This document shows positions 26,011 through 32,328 of a DNA stretch of 64,000 bases, in pieces. The translations under genes were made by a program, and so were the position numbers. The stretch spans positions 1,369,501 through 1,433,500 of the forward strand of contig NZ_CP005188.1 in the NCBI RefSeq assembly GCF_001563285.1, in the 5' to 3' direction. Source of the stretch: Sphingobium sp. MI1205. GTDB lineage: Bacteria; Pseudomonadota; Alphaproteobacteria; Sphingomonadales; Sphingomonadaceae. How positions within the stretch are numbered: position 1 is the first letter of the stretch; each line of letters opens with the position of its first letter. A model generated the notes under the pieces. It searched no databases, was not told where the DNA came from, and worked only from the letters and a program-made list of their open reading frames with translations.

Positions 26011-26877
26011 TCAGCGGAAGACGACCGTCTTTCCGCCATTCAGCAGGACGCGGCGATCGGCGATCCAGCCGACTGCACGGGCCAGCACTTGGGCTTCGAT
26101 ATCACGGCCAATGCGGATCATGTCTTCTGCAGTCGCTCGATGGTCCACCCGCTCTACGGCCTGCTCGATGATCGGCCCTTCGTCGAGATCGGCGGTGACG
26201 AAATGCGCGGTCGCGCCAATTAGTTTTACACCACGCTCATGCGCCCTGTGATAGGGGCGCGCACCTTTGAAGCCGGGAAGGAAGCTGTGGTGGATATTGA
26301 TGCAGCGGCCTTCCAATTGCCCGACGAGCGTTTCTGAGAGAACCTGCATGTAGCGTGCGAGGATCAGATAATCCGATCGCGTCCGATCAAATATGTCCAG
26401 CAAAGCAGCTTCCTGCGCGTCCTTGTCTCCATTGCGCGGCAGTTCGTGGTAGGGAATGCCGTGCCATTCGGTGATACGCCGCATGTCGGGATGGTTCGAC
26501 ACTACGCCCATGATGTCGATCGCCAGCGTTCCGGTCTGCCAGCGGTGGAGCAGATCGGCCAGGCAATGCGATCCCTTCGATACCGCGAGCAGCATGCGCG
26601 GCTTTTCCTGCGCGGGCGTGATCCGCCAATCCATGGCGAAGCGCGCGCCGATTGCATCGAATTCGGCCTTAAGCTGTTCCGTGGCGGTCATCCGGTCGTC
26701 GGTCGCTTCAAACGCGACCCGCATGAAGAAGCGTCCCGCTTCCCGATCGGCATATTGCTGACTGTCCGTGATGAAGCCGCCGCGATCGGCCAAAAACTGG
26801 CTGACCCCGGCAACGATGCCGACGCGGTCGGCGCAGACAAGCGTCAATACCCAGGAAGGGAGAACCGGACTATTCAA
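26011..26877 (-). CDS. purU: Formyltetrahydrofolate deformylase
   Basis: About 288 residues: an N-terminal ACT domain (WVLTLVCADRVGIVAGVSQFLADRGG) and a C-terminal formyl-transferase-like domain. PurU hydrolyses 10-formyl-THF to formate and THF, which balances one-carbon pools and supplies formate to PurT. Active-site residues are seen in INIHHSFLPGFKGARPYHRAHERG and the later Asp in VTADLDEGPIIEQ. The start is uncertain: TTG 26877 follows a GGAGG site and gives the family length; GTG 26925 would add 16 residues. It is followed upstream by the DUF1338 gene on the same strand. Confidence 0.9.
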   Translation of the reverse strand: MNSPVLPSWVLTLVCADRVGIVAGVSQFLADRGGFITDSQQYADREAGRFFMRVAFEATDDRMTATEQLKAEFDAIGARFAMDWRITPAQEKPRMLLAVSKGSHCLADLLHRWQTGTLAIDIMGVVSNHPDMRRITEWHGIPYHELPRNGDKDAQEAALLDIFDRTRSDYLILARYMQVLSETLVGQLEGRCINIHHSFLPGFKGARPYHRAHERGVKLIGATAHFVTADLDEGPIIEQAVERVDHRATAEDMIRIGRDIEAQVLARAVGWIADRRVLLNGGKTVVFR

Positions 26878-26946
26878 CAACGCCTCCGCCAATGCTTGCG
26901 AAAGCCGTTGCCTTATGGCGATCACATGATCAAGCCGTTAAGGGGT

Positions 26947-27966
26947 TCATGACTTCACGCTGGTCATGGCAAAAATGCCGGTCGCATTGCTCGCGTCGAA
27001 CGAAAGGTCCAATCGACCAGTCGCTGGATCGACGTCGCGGCTGATAAATTCGTAAAATGATCCCGGCACCTGGCGCAGTTCTTTCCCGGCGAAGAGCCGT
27101 TCGACGGGGTCTGCGCGCAGAGCCGTTTGGCGCACGCGGCCATTGCGGGATATTTCGATCTTGTCCTTGATCGGCCAATCCTCTTGCCTCAACCGATCGG
27201 CCAGCGCGGCGACGTTCCGCACACGGTCGGTGGCGTGATTAAAAGCGTTGCCCTCAGTCGCGATCCAGGCTGCCTCATGGGATCTCGCCAGCAACTGCTC
27301 GTAGTCGTCCAGTGAGACTGGGTCGTGTTGGCGATCGAAGGCTGAAATCAGAATGGGGAGAGCTTCGACGGCGCGATCAAAGCTGACCGGTTCCCCGCGG
27401 GCGTAGCTGTCGAGTGCTCCGTGCCTCTGCGAATCCAGCGGATCGCGCGACGTCCCGAACACGCGCGCCGCGACTTCGCCGAAGGCGGGATCGAAGCGGT
27501 CGATGTGCAATTCGGACAGGAAGAATTGCGGAATATCCTCCGGCGCGTCGGCATGCACATAGGCCCGTCCAGTCATTTTCAAACGGTCCAATGGATAGAC
27601 GCCCGCCAACTGATAGCCCAAAGGCAGGAAGATGCGGGTGAAGGCGTCTTCGCCCGGAGGGAGGGCGCCGGTCGGTCCCTGCGGCATGCGCACGGTTCGC
27701 AACGCGCCATGGTCGAACATCACCTTGCCGCCTCGCGCCACGGTGTCGGTCACATAGGCCGCCCCGCTCGGCACGCGTTCCAGAAGTCCGTGAAACAGGA
27801 CTATATTCATCGCCATCGCAAGCGCGGCTCGCGATACGTTGGAACCGCCCTCAGCCAGCAAGGAGGGTGCGATGGTCAGCGCCGTCAGCGCCTGTTGCGC
27901 AGCCCTTTGTCCCAGCGCGGCCTCTACCAACGCTGCGACATGTCCCTGCTCACTTCCCACGGCCAT
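26947..27966 (-). CDS. DUF1338 protein (2-oxoadipate dioxygenase/decarboxylase family)
   Basis: A 339-residue DUF1338 protein. The characterised member, HglS of Pseudomonas putida, is an Fe(II) enzyme turning 2-oxoadipate into D-2-hydroxyglutarate in lysine breakdown. Here KVMFDHGALRTV holds the conserved His and Arg, and IATEGNAFNHATDRV the second conserved block with further possible ligands. I cannot confirm 2-oxoadipate as substrate, as no other lysine-pathway genes are adjacent. ATG 27966 is preferred because GGAG lies six bases upstream; the frame opens at 27978. Confidence 0.78.
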   Translation of the reverse strand: MAVGSEQGHVAALVEAALGQRAAQQALTALTIAPSLLAEGGSNVSRAALAMAMNIVLFHGLLERVPSGAAYVTDTVARGGKVMFDHGALRTVRMPQGPTGALPPGEDAFTRIFLPLGYQLAGVYPLDRLKMTGRAYVHADAPEDIPQFFLSELHIDRFDPAFGEVAARVFGTSRDPLDSQRHGALDSYARGEPVSFDRAVEALPILISAFDRQHDPVSLDDYEQLLARSHEAAWIATEGNAFNHATDRVRNVAALADRLRQEDWPIKDKIEISRNGRVRQTALRADPVERLFAGKELRQVPGSFYEFISRDVDPATGRLDLSFDASNATGIFAMTSVKS

Positions 27967-28043
27967 AATGCGCTCCACAAAGAGACAGGCCCGTTATTGC
28001 GCGCCGCATCCGAACTGCCAAGATGCGGAAAGGGCGATCCTGA

Positions 28044-29039
28044 TCACATTTTGCGGGGCATGCAATCGGCACCGGCAGCCTTGATCGCGCCGCACAGCCG
28101 CGCAGCGTCGGCGCTGTTGGCTAGAGGGCCTGCCTGCAGTCTGGTCACCGCGCCGCCCTTCACAAGATAAAGCTGGTAGCTTGAAAGACCGGAAACCTTG
28201 CTGCGCAGGCTGTTCCAGAGCGCGCGCGCGCGTCCCTCTTCGCTGAAGGCACCCAGTTGAACCCGCCACCCGCCATCAGCGGCTACCTTGGGCTGTTCCG
28301 CCTTGTTGATCGCCGTTTTTGCGGCAGCGGCTTTGCCAGAAGTCTTTGACGAAGCAGGCTTCTCTGCATCGGGAGCGGGCGGCAAGGTTGCGGTCGCGAG
28401 CGGCGGCGGACCTTCGCGCACCACGGGCGTAGTCGATGTTCGACCGTTGGCATCTGCCAGCGCCGTCACTTCTGTTGATCCCATATCCCGCGCCATCGCG
28501 AGGCCCCGCTCGCGCTGCTCCGCCGGGATATATCTGTCCATCTGCTTCAGGCTTGCCGTCGCCTGCGTCAGTCCCGCAGCGGATGCGCGGTTCATCAGCG
28601 CATAGGCGCGGGGCCAGTCTTTCGGCGCAAGGTCACCGTTAAAAAGCGCCGTACCAACGATATATTGCGCGCGCGGCTCACCCCTTATCGCCGACCGCTG
28701 TAGATAGGGCAGGGCGCCTGCCCGGTCGCCTTGCTGGAACATCAGCAGGCCAAGATTGTCCTCTGCCCGGATGTGCCCTTGTGCCCTCGCCTTGCGATAC
28801 CAGTCGAGGGCGACGGCCATGTCGGCCTTCACGCCGCGCCCCAGCTTGTATGCCTGACCCATATTGAACTGGGCGTCGGGATCACCCGCCTGAGCAAGCG
28901 GCAGCCATACGCCGACAGCCTTGTCATAATCCCCCTGCTGCCAGGCATCGACGCCGGTCTTCACGTCGGCGAAGGCTGGTGGCGCCAGGCTTACTATCGT
29001 TGCTGCGGCCAAGATGCCCCAGATCTGCTTCATATGCAT
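28044..29039 (-). CDS. Exported Sel1-repeat protein with C-terminal SPOR domain
   Basis: A 331-residue periplasmic protein. The signal peptide ends near APPAFA-D (residue 24). Sel1/TPR repeats follow (about 30-160: AGDPDAQFNMGQAYKLGRGV, YLQRSAIRGEPRAQYIVGTALFNG, and AYALMNRASAAGLTQA), then an Ala/Lys-rich linker and a SPOR domain at about 255-331 (GGWRVQLGAFSEEGRARALWNSL). SPOR domains bind glycan strands stripped of stem peptides, which gather at the division site. The gene is divergent from parA, whose operon ends with a second SPOR protein. Start ATG 29039; the ATG at 29033 is equally possible, with AGGAG upstream. Two CtrA-like boxes lie in the shared promoter region. Confidence 0.85.
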   Translation of the reverse strand: MHMKQIWGILAAATIVSLAPPAFADVKTGVDAWQQGDYDKAVGVWLPLAQAGDPDAQFNMGQAYKLGRGVKADMAVALDWYRKARAQGHIRAEDNLGLLMFQQGDRAGALPYLQRSAIRGEPRAQYIVGTALFNGDLAPKDWPRAYALMNRASAAGLTQATASLKQMDRYIPAEQRERGLAMARDMGSTEVTALADANGRTSTTPVVREGPPPLATATLPPAPDAEKPASSKTSGKAAAAKTAINKAEQPKVAADGGWRVQLGAFSEEGRARALWNSLRSKVSGLSSYQLYLVKGGAVTRLQAGPLANSADAARLCGAIKAAGADCMPRKM

Positions 29040-29085
29040 GTGCTCCTGAAAGGACAGCTTTGCCGCAGCCTATGATCCAACAAGG

Positions 29086-29100
29086 TTAACGGCCACTTAG
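29086..29100. promoter_or_regulatory. CtrA-like box 1 in the SPOR/parA intergenic region
   Basis: TTAA-CGGCCAC-TTAG (29086-29100) matches the CtrA consensus TTAA-N7-TTAA except for the last base. It lies 47 bp upstream of the Sel1/SPOR start and 124 bp from the parA start. Confidence 0.5.
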
Positions 29101-29157
29101 CATTAAGAGGGCCATGCTTTATAGTGCTATCCTGCCCTACACAGGGATGCGGCGATG

Positions 29158-29172
29158 TTAACCAATTCTTAG
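29158..29172. promoter_or_regulatory. CtrA-like box 2 in the SPOR/parA intergenic region
   Basis: TTAA-CCAATTC-TTAG (29158-29172) has the same one-base deviation as box 1 and lies 51 bp before the parA start. Two such boxes in one intergenic region make chance less likely and suggest that CtrA controls both directions. Confidence 0.55.
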
Positions 29173-29223
29173 GCGCCGCCGTGGCACTCCAGAACCCAAT
29201 TGGATTTTCTGGGGGAAACGCGC

Positions 29224-29946
29224 GTGCGCATACTCGCATTGGCATCGCAAAAAGGTGGGTCCGGCAAGACCACCCTGTCTGGTCACCTGGCCGTCCAGGC
29301 GCAGAGGGCCGGGGCCGGCCCGGTGGTTCTGATCGACATCGATCCGCAGGGGTCGCTCTCCGACTGGTGGAACGAGCGCGAGGCGGAATTTCCGGCCTTT
29401 GCCCAGACGACAGTTGCGCGTCTGGCCGCCGATCTGGAAATTCTTCGTCAGCAGGGCTTCAAGCTTGCGGTCATCGATACGCCGCCCGCAATCACCATGG
29501 CAATCCAGAGCGTAATTTCGGTCGCTGAACTGATCGTCGTACCCACGCGTCCCAGCCCTCATGATCTTCGCGCCGTTGGCGCTACGGTTGATCTTTGCGA
29601 CCGGGCGGGCAAGCCGTTGATCTTCGTCGTCAACGCGGCGACCCCCAAGGCGCGGATCACGTCCGAAGCAGCTGTTGCACTTTCCCAGCATGGTACGGTC
29701 GCGCCGGTGACGCTCCACCATCGCACCGACTTTGCAGCATCGATGATCGACGGGCGTACGGTGATGGAGGTCGATCCCAATGGCCGCTCGGCCGGCGAAG
29801 TGACTCAGCTCTGGAGCTACGTGTCCGACCGCCTTGAAAAGAATTTCCGGCGCACGGTCTTTTCCGTGCCCAACGGTTCGGCGGGTACGCCCGGTGCCGT
29901 GCGTCCAGCGACCGGTGGCTTCGGCCGCCGGGTCGTCGGCCAGTAA
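29224..29946 (+). CDS. ParA/MinD-family positioning ATPase (orphan)
   Basis: A 240-residue ParA-like ATPase. The deviant Walker A motif SQKGGSGKTTL (residues 8-18) has the signature Lys; VVLIDIDPQGSLSDWW and LAVIDTPPA give the Walker A' and B elements. There is no DNA-binding N-terminal domain, as in small chromosomal ParA, MipZ or cargo-positioning ParA proteins. The C-terminus has a Pro/Gly-rich tail. GTG 29224 follows a GGGGG ribosome site. It is followed by an RHH protein, not a ParB, and then by a SPOR lipoprotein, so it may position division or polar factors rather than the chromosome origin. Confidence 0.85.
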   Translation: MRILALASQKGGSGKTTLSGHLAVQAQRAGAGPVVLIDIDPQGSLSDWWNEREAEFPAFAQTTVARLAADLEILRQQGFKLAVIDTPPAITMAIQSVISVAELIVVPTRPSPHDLRAVGATVDLCDRAGKPLIFVVNAATPKARITSEAAVALSQHGTVAPVTLHHRTDFAASMIDGRTVMEVDPNGRSAGEVTQLWSYVSDRLEKNFRRTVFSVPNGSAGTPGAVRPATGGFGRRVVGQ

Positions 29947-29963
29947 CAGGGAGGGAAGACATC

Positions 29964-30479
29964 ATGGGCGAATCCAAGCCACTCGCTTCGCTGACCTCCG
30001 GGTTGCTCGCACGCAAGGGCGCTGCCCAACCTGCCATGCGCCGCCCCATAATGGGTTTTGGTGGTCAGGCGACAGCTGCCCTGTTGCAGGATGATCTTGG
30101 CTGGAACGACATGGGTTTTGACGTGACAGAGCCTGAGCCGGTTCCCACAGAGCCCCGGGCCGTGGTCGGACTGACGCCGATGACGCAACCGCCCGCGGCA
30201 GCTCCCGTGCCTCCCGTCGTTGTGGCGCGAAAGGAACTGACAGAGCGAATGGAAGAAGCGGTCAAGACGACTGCTCCGGCGACCCGTCCGGTCAGGGCGC
30301 GCAAGGCCGCCTTTACGCTCCGTCTGGACGCAGATCGGCATTTGAAGCTGCGGCTCGCCAGCGCCATTGTAGGCCGATCGGCGCAGCAGATGGTGACCGA
30401 AGCGCTCGACATATTCCTCGCCAGCCTGCCCGACATAGACAGGCTTGCGCAGCAACTGCCGCGCGACGAAGCGAAGTAA
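29964..30479 (+). CDS. Ribbon-helix-helix-like partner protein of the ParA-SPOR locus
   Basis: A 171-residue cytosolic protein without recognised close relatives. The N-terminal half is low-complexity, with Pro-rich stretches (residues 55-85). The C-terminal block KAAFTLRLDADRHLKLRLAS followed by AIVGRSAQQMVTEALDIFLASLP has the strand-helix-helix pattern of RHH (Arc/MetJ-type) DNA-binding proteins. RHH partners of ParA ATPases are known in plasmid segregation, where they bind the centromere. It follows parA by 17 bp and precedes the SPOR lipoprotein by 13 bp. The DNA-binding role is inferred from pattern, not from an assigned family. Confidence 0.65.
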   Translation: MGESKPLASLTSGLLARKGAAQPAMRRPIMGFGGQATAALLQDDLGWNDMGFDVTEPEPVPTEPRAVVGLTPMTQPPAAAPVPPVVVARKELTERMEEAVKTTAPATRPVRARKAAFTLRLDADRHLKLRLASAIVGRSAQQMVTEALDIFLASLPDIDRLAQQLPRDEAK

Positions 30480-30492
30480 GGGAGACACGCCC

Positions 30493-31794
30493 ATGAAGCG
30501 CAATGCTCTTGCCAAGGCGGCATTTTCGTCACTGGTCTTGGGGACGACGATGGTCGGCTGTACTGGTGCAGCCTTCCGTCCTTCCGCCATTGCGCCTGCC
30601 AGGCAGAACCCCGACCGCGCAGCCGCTGCCATAGACAAGGCGCTGGCCGACCACGACGGCGTCCGCGCAATCGCAGCGGCCGAGACGGCGGTGCAGGCTG
30701 CCCCGCAGGACGCGAGCTATCGCCAGTTGCTGGGCCGCGCTTATATTGCCGATGGCCGATTCGCGTCGGCTGAAACTGCGCTCGGTGACGCCATGGCCTT
30801 GGGTAATCGCGATCCTCGCACGATTGTCAGTCTGGCACTGGTCAAGGTGGCGCTCGGCAAGAGCGACGCCGCGCGCGATCTTCTCACCTCTCATGCGGAC
30901 ATCGTTCCGGCGGGTGATTATGGCCTTGCCATCGCTATGGCGGGTGACGCGGCTGAAGGCGTCCGCATCCTGTCCGCAGCCATTCACGATTCGTCTGCCA
31001 CCGCGCGTACGCGCCAGAATCTTGCCTATGTCTATGCGTTGGCGGGCCGGTGGAAGGATGCGCGCGTCATGGCTGGGATTGATCTGGAGCCACTCGCGGC
31101 AAATCAGCGCATCGCACAATGGGCGCAGACGGCGGCTCCCGAACTTGCGCAGCAGCGCATCGCGGGTCTGATGGGCGTGACGATCAATGGCAGCGATGCA
31201 GGCCAGCCGGTTGCCCTCGCGCTCGCTCCTGAGCCCGCGCCGGTGCAGACTGCGCAGGTGCCCGAGCCGATTGTCGAGGCTGTTTCTGTGGAAGTTGCCG
31301 CTACGTCGAGTCCGCAATTCGAAGCTGTCCCTTCGGAGGCCTTCGCGCCGGTCGAAACGCATGATCTTGCATTTGTAGAGAATCGGGCTCCGTTGAAGCT
31401 GGCCAGCGTCCGCCAGCCTGCGGCGGTCCGCGTACCGCTGGCTCCGCGCCGCATGCAGGCTGCCTTCATTCCTCAGGACAAGGGCAGCAGCAACTGGGTC
31501 GTTCAACTCGGCGCTTACGAGAATGCCGCCATCGCCAAGGAAAAATGGTTTGAGATGGCCCGCCGCAATCACGTACTTTCGACGCTGCCTGTGCTTACCA
31601 GCCAGATCACGCTCAACGGCGTCAGCTATTCGCGCCTCGCAGTAAGTGGGTTCAATGATCGTCTGGAGGCGGTCGCGATGTGTCGCGCCATTCGCGCTCA
31701 GCGCGGGCAGTGCTTCGTTCGCGAAAATGCGCCCGACGCAGCGACTCAGCGCTGGGCCGTGGCACTCAAGCAGCGTCAACTTGCATCGCGCTGA
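30493..31794 (+). CDS. TPR-containing lipoprotein with SPOR domain
   Basis: A 433-residue envelope protein. The N-terminus (MKRNALAKAAFSSLVLGTTM then VGC) looks like a lipoprotein signal, with Cys at residue 22. TPR-like repeats span about 35-210 (ASYRQLLGRAYIADGRFASAETALGDA, ARTRQNLAYVYALAGRWKDA), followed by a Pro/Val-rich linker and a SPOR domain at about 335-420 (SNWVVQLGAYENAAIAKEKWFEMA). It should reach from the outer membrane to denuded septal glycan. It ends the parA-RHH operon and mirrors the divergent Sel1/SPOR protein. Two hairpins follow the stop codon. Confidence 0.83.
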   Translation: MKRNALAKAAFSSLVLGTTMVGCTGAAFRPSAIAPARQNPDRAAAAIDKALADHDGVRAIAAAETAVQAAPQDASYRQLLGRAYIADGRFASAETALGDAMALGNRDPRTIVSLALVKVALGKSDAARDLLTSHADIVPAGDYGLAIAMAGDAAEGVRILSAAIHDSSATARTRQNLAYVYALAGRWKDARVMAGIDLEPLAANQRIAQWAQTAAPELAQQRIAGLMGVTINGSDAGQPVALALAPEPAPVQTAQVPEPIVEAVSVEVAATSSPQFEAVPSEAFAPVETHDLAFVENRAPLKLASVRQPAAVRVPLAPRRMQAAFIPQDKGSSNWVVQLGAYENAAIAKEKWFEMARRNHVLSTLPVLTSQITLNGVSYSRLAVSGFNDRLEAVAMCRAIRAQRGQCFVRENAPDAATQRWAVALKQRQLASR

Positions 31795-31879: not shown

Positions 31880-31953
31880 ATCTCATTATGCCACCTTGGC
31901 TTCGAACGCGAGCGGGTCAAACAGGCGTTATAACGATAACCGGGATTAGCTAA

Positions 31954-32328
31954 TTCAGCCGCCAAACTGTCCAAGAAGGCGGGACCACCTCAGAGGCCCT
32001 GACACCTGCCACGGAAGGCCTGATAGACCGCGAAGTCCTAGACCTGCTCGGCCACCGGGGTTTTCTGGTAAATGCCGCGCGAGGCGGTCTCGTGGATGAG
32101 GATGCCCTTATTGCCGCATTACGCGAGGGAACGCTTGGCGCCGCGGCGCTCGATGTACAACGATCGGAGCCGCCGTCGCGGGGCTACTGGCGATCGGTAC
32201 CGAATATTCTGCTCACGCCCCATATCGGTGGGGTCGCGACCGGCGCTCTCGCCAACCTGGATGCTCTGCTTCGAGCCAATCTGCGCAGCTTCTTTTCCGG
32301 AGCGGGGCCCCTGAACCCGGTCAACTGA
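31954..32328 (+). pseudogene. C-terminal remnant of a D-2-hydroxyacid dehydrogenase
   Basis: An open frame with no proper start encodes about 124 residues, of which roughly the last 108 match the C-terminal part of D-2-hydroxyacid dehydrogenases (glyoxylate/hydroxypyruvate reductase type): ALTPATEGLIDREVLDLL, FLVNAARGGLVDEDALIAAL, and the catalytic His in LLTPHIGGVATGA. The first two thirds of the enzyme, including the NAD Rossmann core, are gone, and the frame runs back to a TAA at 31951. It is therefore a truncated gene left by insertion or deletion. Its stop overlaps tail-to-tail with the GMC gene by 8 bp. Confidence 0.75.

Follow-up and report, generated by a model that had tools for sequence, protein, structure and literature searches.

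Linkage of a ParA-type ATPase to SPOR proteins

ATPases of the ParA/MinD group position DNA and carboxysomes as well as chemoreceptors and division rings. In Sphingobium sp. MI1205, one such ATPase is encoded amid genes for proteins with SPOR domains. We analyzed this locus within a window of 64,000 nucleotides (contig NZ_CP005188.1, positions 1,369,501 to 1,433,500), where it lies at 1.40 Mb on the largest contig of a 4.62-Mb, six-contig genome. Four genes make up the locus, namely: a Sel1-SPOR gene and, divergent from it, those encoding the ParA ATPase, a ribbon-helix-helix (RHH) protein and a TPR-SPOR protein; all four open reading frames (ORFs) were found where a preliminary description of this DNA had placed them. 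Our reading, which we hold at a probability of roughly 0.55, is that a plasmid-type ParA/RHH pair has been adopted by alphaproteobacterial chromosomes and coupled there to SPOR proteins, within an operon at this locus and by fusion elsewhere. SPOR domains are reported to bind amidase-processed peptidoglycan (PMC7822825).

The linkage was followed through the order in a sample of 147 genomes, 124 of which are of good quality. A ParA profile matches 122 of the 147, 109 of the 124 and, by our own row count, 60 of the 64 genomes in the family; a search with the single RHH sequence matches 95 of the 147. For Sel1-SPOR and TPR-SPOR, profiles were run against the whole of each of these genomes, and the best listed match in each was used; the starting sequences of alignments A5 and A6 were genes adjacent to ParA, although the searches covered entire genomes. 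By this measure, ParA has a SPOR gene of either kind within 5 kb in 119 of the 122 genomes and both kinds in 98, arranged as Sel1< ParA> TPR> in 81 genomes and as ParA> Sel1< TPR> in 17. Co-occurrence in relatives, on which the preliminary description had made its proposal depend, is thus borne out. There are three unlinked exceptions: in G101 the ParA gene stands at a contig end, in G107 the genes are on different contigs, and only G034 represents a true separation.

Among 30 family loci (the window and the 29 best other RHH matches), ParA, RHH and TPR-SPOR occur together in all 30 and Sel1-SPOR is found upstream in 29, the remaining locus being L010. Excluding the window's own copy, ParA is 83-89% identical among these loci, against about 36-49% for the RHH protein. 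Only four SPOR matches are present in the whole Sphingobium genome, and two of them are at this locus; since the linkage is also conserved, the four genes are together more than chance would bring about. A reduced layout is seen at L236 of G132, where the Sel1-SPOR and TPR-SPOR matches are 247 bp apart (1314-1562), ParA and RHH were not found, and the promoter box described below is kept.

Fusion of the ParA-associated tail to SPOR domains

The second form of association was found outside the order. The RHH protein of the window begins with a conserved tail, with the consensus ASLxxxLLARKGxAxP (including R17/K18). In Parvibaculum, Tepidicaulis and their relatives, the gene after ParA encodes a protein in which a tail of the same pattern (ASLxSxLLVRKGxAxP) is followed by a single strongly hydrophobic span and, at the C-terminus, by a SPOR domain. 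Such tail-transmembrane-SPOR fusions occur at 14 loci of our named set, which holds the best 80 of 554 relatives and is not a census; a fifteenth (L159) is broken by a contig end. We also examined a class sample of 289 genomes, 39 of which carry a ParA at E<=1e-70, with ParA loci fetched as stretches of about 10 kb where the contig allowed. The two collections share three records (L152/G288, L154/G386 and L165/G371). At the 43 class loci outside the Sphingobium family, the gene after ParA encodes an RHH protein in 28, a SPOR fusion in seven, and a tail-bearing protein with neither an RHH nor a SPOR match in four; no partner was found in the other four, three of which are at contig ends.

Pfam SPOR scores above its cut-off in all six complete ParA-adjacent SPOR proteins scanned (L152, L158, L165, L181, L183 and L198). 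For the adaptor of G147, our own profile finds the domain in a longer stretch, while Pfam is silent on a shorter fragment. At L181, the protein after ParA has tail, span and SPOR domain; next to this pair, a further SPOR protein, convergent and hydrophobic in an N-terminal segment, is encoded (L181, 4950-5759). Three Kiloniellaceae loci (L183, L197 and L198) and an unclassified alphaproteobacterial one (L223) have, after ParA, a protein of 570-620 amino acids with a C-terminal SPOR domain; among these four, only L198 has a tail match, a weak one, and L197 shows no clear span. Five of the seven class genomes with fusions (G155, G268, G288, G352 and G371, the last 10% contaminated) hold a second ParA with an RHH partner; the paired systems of these genomes are at L277, L281, L282, L285, L287, L289, L291, L298, L300 and L301. 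Four to six other SPOR matches are present in each of the five fusion genomes that were searched for them.

Six tail residues (L10, L14, K18, G19, A21 and P23) are invariant in 14 tails, SPOR fusions among them. The tail was sought in 20 genomes, with only part of the candidates scored in several of them: 20 of the 21 matches at E<0.001 adjoin a ParA of the same family, the sole exception being on contig C12 of G269, and this search gave no tail match in G424 or G302. The same pattern is carried by both RHH and SPOR adaptors, as a modular N-terminal peptide whose stimulation of the ATPase is a prediction; a dedicated activating peptide of this sort is a mark of ParA/MinD positioning systems. 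Because the tail is the only part visibly common to the two kinds of adaptor, it is most likely the element that contacts ParA, and it fits the pattern of ParA-activating peptides given in one report (PMC10241942). Taken together, the two separate forms of association, gene linkage and fusion, give good support for connecting ParAs of this family with the cell wall.

Organization of the locus

The coordinates are collected in Table 1.

Table 1. Features of the ParA-RHH-SPOR locus (window positions).
Feature	Position	Strand	Basis or remark
Sel1-SPOR	28044-29039	-	ORF list; Pfam Sel1 45.7 bits, SPOR 54.9 bits; divergent from ParA operon
CtrA-like element TTAACCAATTCTTAG (TTAA-N7-TTAR)	29158-29172	+	about 50 bp before ParA start
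ParA ATPase, ParF (type Ib)-like	29224-29946	+	GTG start picked via ortholog alignments
RHH partner: N-terminal tail, variable linker, C-terminal RHH domain	29964-30479	+	
Tail motif ASLTSGLLARKGAAQPAMRR, candidate ParA-activating peptide	29985-30044	+	residues 8-27
RHH domain	30288-30428	+	residues 109-155; profile search and AlphaFold2 model
TPR-SPOR	30493-31794	+	Pfam TPR_19 34.7 bits, SPOR 31.3 bits

Both outer proteins exceed the Pfam SPOR cut-off of 21 bits. In Sel1-SPOR, the SPOR domain lies at about 28053-28277 and the hydropathy scan finds a hydrophobic, signal-like N-terminus. In TPR-SPOR, the TPR region is at about 30640-30888 and the SPOR domain at about 31486-31722; a lipobox-like Cys23 was read by eye, while the hydropathy scan did not flag the N-terminus. 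Both thus look exported, and the RHH protein looks cytosolic. Neither SPOR protein is FtsN, as NF050813 gives 43.4 and 28 of the 300 bits required and no internal membrane span is seen in the hydropathy scan.

The flanks appear unrelated to the locus on the Sel1-SPOR side, where a 2-oxoadipate dioxygenase/decarboxylase-like (HGLS) gene is followed by purU, the two spanning 26011-27978 on the minus strand. On the other side, an apparent C-terminal remnant of a D-2-hydroxyacid dehydrogenase (31950-32327) stands between TPR-SPOR and an ORF for a GMC-type oxidoreductase on the other strand, both read by eye.

The ATPase and its RHH partner

The window's ParA is a ParF-type ATPase with a deviant Walker A motif (KGGSGKTT), and the active-site residues of its core do not vary in two ortholog alignments, one of 17 and one of 19 sequences. 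Its closest solved relatives are ParA 5u1g and ParF 4dzz (E 5-6e-22; 5.8e-22 for 4dzz). The score for NCBIfam NF041546 (ParA family partition ATPase) is 164.6 bits, below the 180-bit cut-off. The alignments also show a conserved C-terminal tail (NFRRTVF...GFGRR), which a Comamonas plasmid ParA lacks.

MipZ is an alphaproteobacterial ParA-like division regulator, and we considered whether the window's ParA is this protein. The match to PF09140 (31.4 bits against a cut-off of 20.7, which other ParA-like proteins exceed too) covers only residues 3-54, corresponding to MipZ positions 2-53, and a separate full-length MipZ is present in the same genome (8.2e-110). The identification was therefore rejected.

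The adjacent protein was described beforehand as RHH-like, an assignment that Pfam alone leaves below cut-off (PF23807, 16.9 of 27 bits). A profile built from 29 RHH relatives supports it, matching solved structures, namely: 2kel (protein 56B, E 4.7e-5), ParG 1p94 (0.0072) and omega (0.24-0.3). The AlphaFold2 model has two confident helices (residues 123-136 and 140-153), the rest being mostly of low confidence (mean predicted local distance difference test score 67.5). Foldseek returned 11 hits to this model, all at E>1; we take most of them to be RHH proteins (AtaR, CdbA, CopG, Arc and, probably, one entry of a MatP complex). Across the 29 family members, mean identity to the window's protein is 64% in the tail, 65% in the RHH domain, 76% in a family-specific DLGWNDMG stretch and 20% in the linker.

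The ParA had also been called an orphan. This does not hold, since the adjoining RHH gene is of partner type and the two proteins resemble plasmid ParF and ParG. An adjacent RHH partner with a basic N-terminal tail is, like the ParF-type ATPase, a feature of type Ib partition systems, and the window's pair has both. Being carried by a plasmid and stabilizing it, also part of that definition, does not describe this pair, which is on the largest contig, with ParA retained by most genomes of the order as given above.

Plasmid relatives and ancestry

The closest ParAs in the plasmid collection are 23 records of at least 60% identity, reaching 66.5%, and include those of Comamonas, Deefgea, Methylomonas, Xanthomonas and Pseudomonas plasmids. 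We examined 16 plasmid stretches, which yielded 15 partners. The tail profile matches seven of the 15 (E<0.01), all among the closer ParAs, e.g. SSLSAGLIAKKGQAVPA in Comamonas and ASLTSGLVAKKGQAAPA in Deefgea, and the RHH profile matches eight (E<0.001). The two matches coincide in four partners (Comamonas, Methylomonas, PLAsvaD and Deefgea). The Pfam RHH model is above cut-off in the Pseudomonas plasmid partner and silent in the Comamonas one. None of the 15 has a SPOR match, and a replication gene is next to or near three of the pairs. A plasmid partition family consisting of ParA and a small RHH-type protein with an LVAxKGxAxP-like tail is seen at L232, L233, L250, L251 and L252; its partner is annotated as a hypothetical protein in all but L233, which is without annotation.

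The non-plasmid ParAs form one clade (support 99/95 in a first tree and 97/96 in a second, and 98% of the bootstrap trees in each), although many of them are on draft-genome contigs or in metagenome-assembled genomes and not each is proved chromosomal. The second tree differs from the first by 13 new rows and by the loss of 12, namely the outgroup, ten plasmid rows and an earlier row for G147. Both trees are midpoint-rooted, with long deep plasmid branches, so that a move from plasmids to chromosomes is what they most naturally suggest but do not prove. On the second tree, the SPOR-fused ParAs lie apart from the sphingomonads and require two changes (two to three in bootstrap trees, one of them forced by well-supported branches).

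Two separable modules

Several observations weigh against the coupling of ParA to SPOR proteins. A SPOR match is absent from the fetched stretches of all 36 non-fusion class loci, including the 28 of RHH type, and SPOR genes are likewise missing near 12 of the 16 RHH-type loci of the named set that we assigned, from ParA score and title, to non-sphingomonads; the other four, with a downstream SPOR gene, are Kiloniellaceae/Kiloniellales loci (L171, L175, L218 and L219). On these counts, a SPOR link ancestral to all ParAs of this family was rejected, and the coupling looks derived. Within the order, eight genomes keep Sel1-SPOR and TPR-SPOR adjacent with no ParA match (G001, G006, G036, G058, G085, G090, G102 and G132, of which G036 is 89% and G102 76% complete), so that the SPOR proteins do not need ParA. 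Conversely, ParA is dispensable over evolution, since four of the 64 family genomes lack a match. In G125 (L244), ParA is only 71% identical and is followed directly by TPR-SPOR, the matches being about 45 bp apart; no RHH gene was found there, apparently a loss of the partner with a faster-evolving ParA. Furthermore, the window's own gene set offers no link from cytosol to periplasm, as its RHH protein has no membrane span in the hydropathy scan and its SPOR proteins look exported. Finally, a centromere array at the promoter, such as type Ib systems have beside their genes, was sought and rejected: only one weak two-copy direct repeat is present at 29020-29260, and the rest of the genome was not searched.

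Since the SPOR pair survives without ParA and RHH-type class loci occur without SPOR genes, ParA-RHH and the SPOR genes are, on this comparative record, separable modules, tightly linked in the order and occasionally elsewhere. The preliminary proposal of a link to constriction stands in part: SPOR linkage and the tail-transmembrane-SPOR fusions tie the ParA family to the cell wall, the latter more directly than could be seen from the window, whereas the four genes are not one unit.

The same observations bear on the possibility that ParA-RHH serves chromosome or terminus segregation as an additional partition system of the chromosome, directed at some DNA site, and that its SPOR neighbours are inherited synteny with no function. 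Its kinship with plasmid partition pairs and the predominance of RHH-type loci outside the family, none with SPOR in the fetched stretch, are what such a system would leave behind. However, SPOR coupling takes two forms in separate parts of the tree, the linkage outlasts a change of gene order, and no repeat array is present at the window's promoter. We regard this explanation as unlikely.

A conserved element in the divergent promoter

In addition to the element in Table 1, a second CtrA-like copy with one mismatch is present at 29086. With up to one mismatch allowed, 77 of 80 upstreams adjoining Sel1-SPOR contain a TTAA-N7-TTAA box, compared with a mean of 12.3 and a maximum of 22 in 100 shuffles, the 80 being related sequences; it is weaker in loci without a strong Sel1-SPOR (35 of 73; shuffle mean 13.8, maximum 20). 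In the named-genome subset, the box is found in 35 of 37 ParA upstreams versus none of 117 control upstreams. In these controls, the start codon was taken at the first possible position and some coding sequence may be present, so that the shuffles and a count over whole loci are the better controls. In that count, 24 instances of the stricter TTAAC-N6-TTAR were seen over 378 kb of loci; 23 of them, from 21 of the 37 loci, are no further than 300 bp upstream of ParA. GANTC sites are not enriched in the 80 upstreams (24 of 80 versus a shuffle mean of 43.7).

The box resembles the CtrA consensus given for Hyphomonas, TTAA-N7-TTAAC (PMC7200025), and CtrA may control the locus. TTAACC-N5-TTAR occurs three times in the 4.6-Mb genome (once for the reversed-pattern control), one site being at this locus; of the other two, assigned by eye, one lies by a purH-like gene and one between genes resembling purM and purN, and they thus do not confirm CtrA. 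Moreover, CtrA was reported to be without growth effect in Sphingomonas melonis (PMC8116508), so that a CtrA site would not prove an essential role in division.

Such an element could also serve the RHH protein itself. ParG-type proteins act as autorepressors, and the RHH protein might mainly repress its own operon, with ParA as a modulator and the SPOR genes simply co-regulated. The presence of an RHH domain, the conserved element in the divergent promoter and the position of TPR-SPOR downstream in the same direction are all compatible with this. The element TTAACCATTCTTTAG, however, persists before TPR-SPOR at L236, where ParA and RHH were not found. This one case favours binding by a regulator of the host over an operator for RHH; in the remaining ParA-less loci that we inspected, all matches (with one mismatch or none) are to other sequences. 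The SPOR-fused adaptors, too, retain ParA and the tail although they give no RHH match. A mainly regulatory role is quite unlikely.

Proposed mechanism

If a plasmid-type pair was indeed coupled to SPOR proteins, the following scheme can be put forward. ParA-ATP dimers would coat the nucleoid, as in the family at large, and the partner's tail would insert at the ParA dimer and trigger ATP hydrolysis, by analogy with ParG, PomX and ParB. The site of ParA removal would then depend on the domain joined to the tail: the RHH domain on DNA in sphingomonads; elsewhere (Parvibaculum-like and some Kiloniellaceae-like loci), a bitopic inner-membrane adaptor with its SPOR domain on denuded septal glycan. 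The ParA gradient on the nucleoid would thus be shaped by an adaptor marking DNA or septal wall, and the outcome would be the relative positioning of the nucleoid, or of an RHH-bound DNA site, and the constriction site. Both SPOR genes of the window are either part of the ParA-RHH operon or divergent from it, behind the CtrA-like site. The gene set and its conservation, the fusions, the kinship with plasmid pairs and the promoter element are observed; ATPase activation, nucleoid binding, septal localization, control by CtrA and any contact between RHH and SPOR proteins are presumed in this scheme, and we infer the septum as the site of action and nucleoid position as the read-out.

Generalized, a domesticated partition motor might couple the nucleoid to septal peptidoglycan through interchangeable adaptors, the state of the wall outside setting the ParA gradient inside; we offer this only tentatively. 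Instead of the divisome, the cargo could be a machine of the cell pole or envelope, such as that for polar growth, a flagellum or a pilus, with SPOR marking young poles. CtrA often controls motility genes. SPOR proteins can also act beyond division, as RgsS is reported to support growth-pole inheritance in Sinorhizobium (PMC7822825). None of the seven window proteins scanned with Pfam and NCBIfam, however, matches a motility or pilus family above cut-off, a weak counter-argument, drawn from the window alone. We consider such a cargo improbable.

Comparison with known systems

In the open-licence PubMed Central literature, judged by titles and the starts of abstracts, we found neither a described ParA/MinD ATPase with a peptidoglycan-reading partner nor a relevant account of this gene set, for which the preliminary description likewise knew of no described system. 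The locus also lets one trace how a plasmid-type partition pair became a chromosomal system, with a conserved motif that predicts partners, and the system is present in well-known environmental genera (Sphingobium, Novosphingobium, Sphingomonas and Parvibaculum).

The nearest relatives are partition pairs. ParF-ParG of plasmid TP228 (type Ib) shares the ParF-family ParA and the ParG-type RHH partner, and ParG has a basic N-terminal tail (PMC7993993). The window's system differs in its place on the largest contig, its retention through the order, the C-terminal tail of its ParA, the long linker of its partner, its SPOR neighbours and the lack of a repeat array at its promoter. The pairs from Comamonas, Methylomonas, Deefgea, Pseudomonas and Xanthomonas plasmids are closer, with a ParA about 60-66% identical, a small RHH-type partner and, in seven of 15, the tail; they differ in being plasmid-borne, three near a replication gene, and in having partners free of SPOR matches.

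Among systems that place division, PomXYZ of Myxococcus has different activators and a polymer scaffold, acts on FtsZ and is not known to include a SPOR protein. It is alike in that a ParA/MinD ATPase positions division on the nucleoid, with an activator bearing a short basic N-terminal peptide (PMC7993993). MatP-ZapB-ZapA and the terminus to Z-ring link of Caulobacter are also comparable. MatP ties the terminus to the Z-ring (PMC7188993). MatP is an RHH protein, and neither link is known to involve a ParA or a SPOR protein.

The fused adaptors are alike in topology to bitopic SPOR proteins of the FtsN/RgsS type. In FtsN, a cytosolic part is followed by one transmembrane segment, a linker and the SPOR domain. 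Unlike these proteins, the adaptors carry a ParA-type tail and follow parA. Within a single polypeptide, a tail-transmembrane-SPOR adaptor could convey information between septal wall and nucleoid, in either direction.

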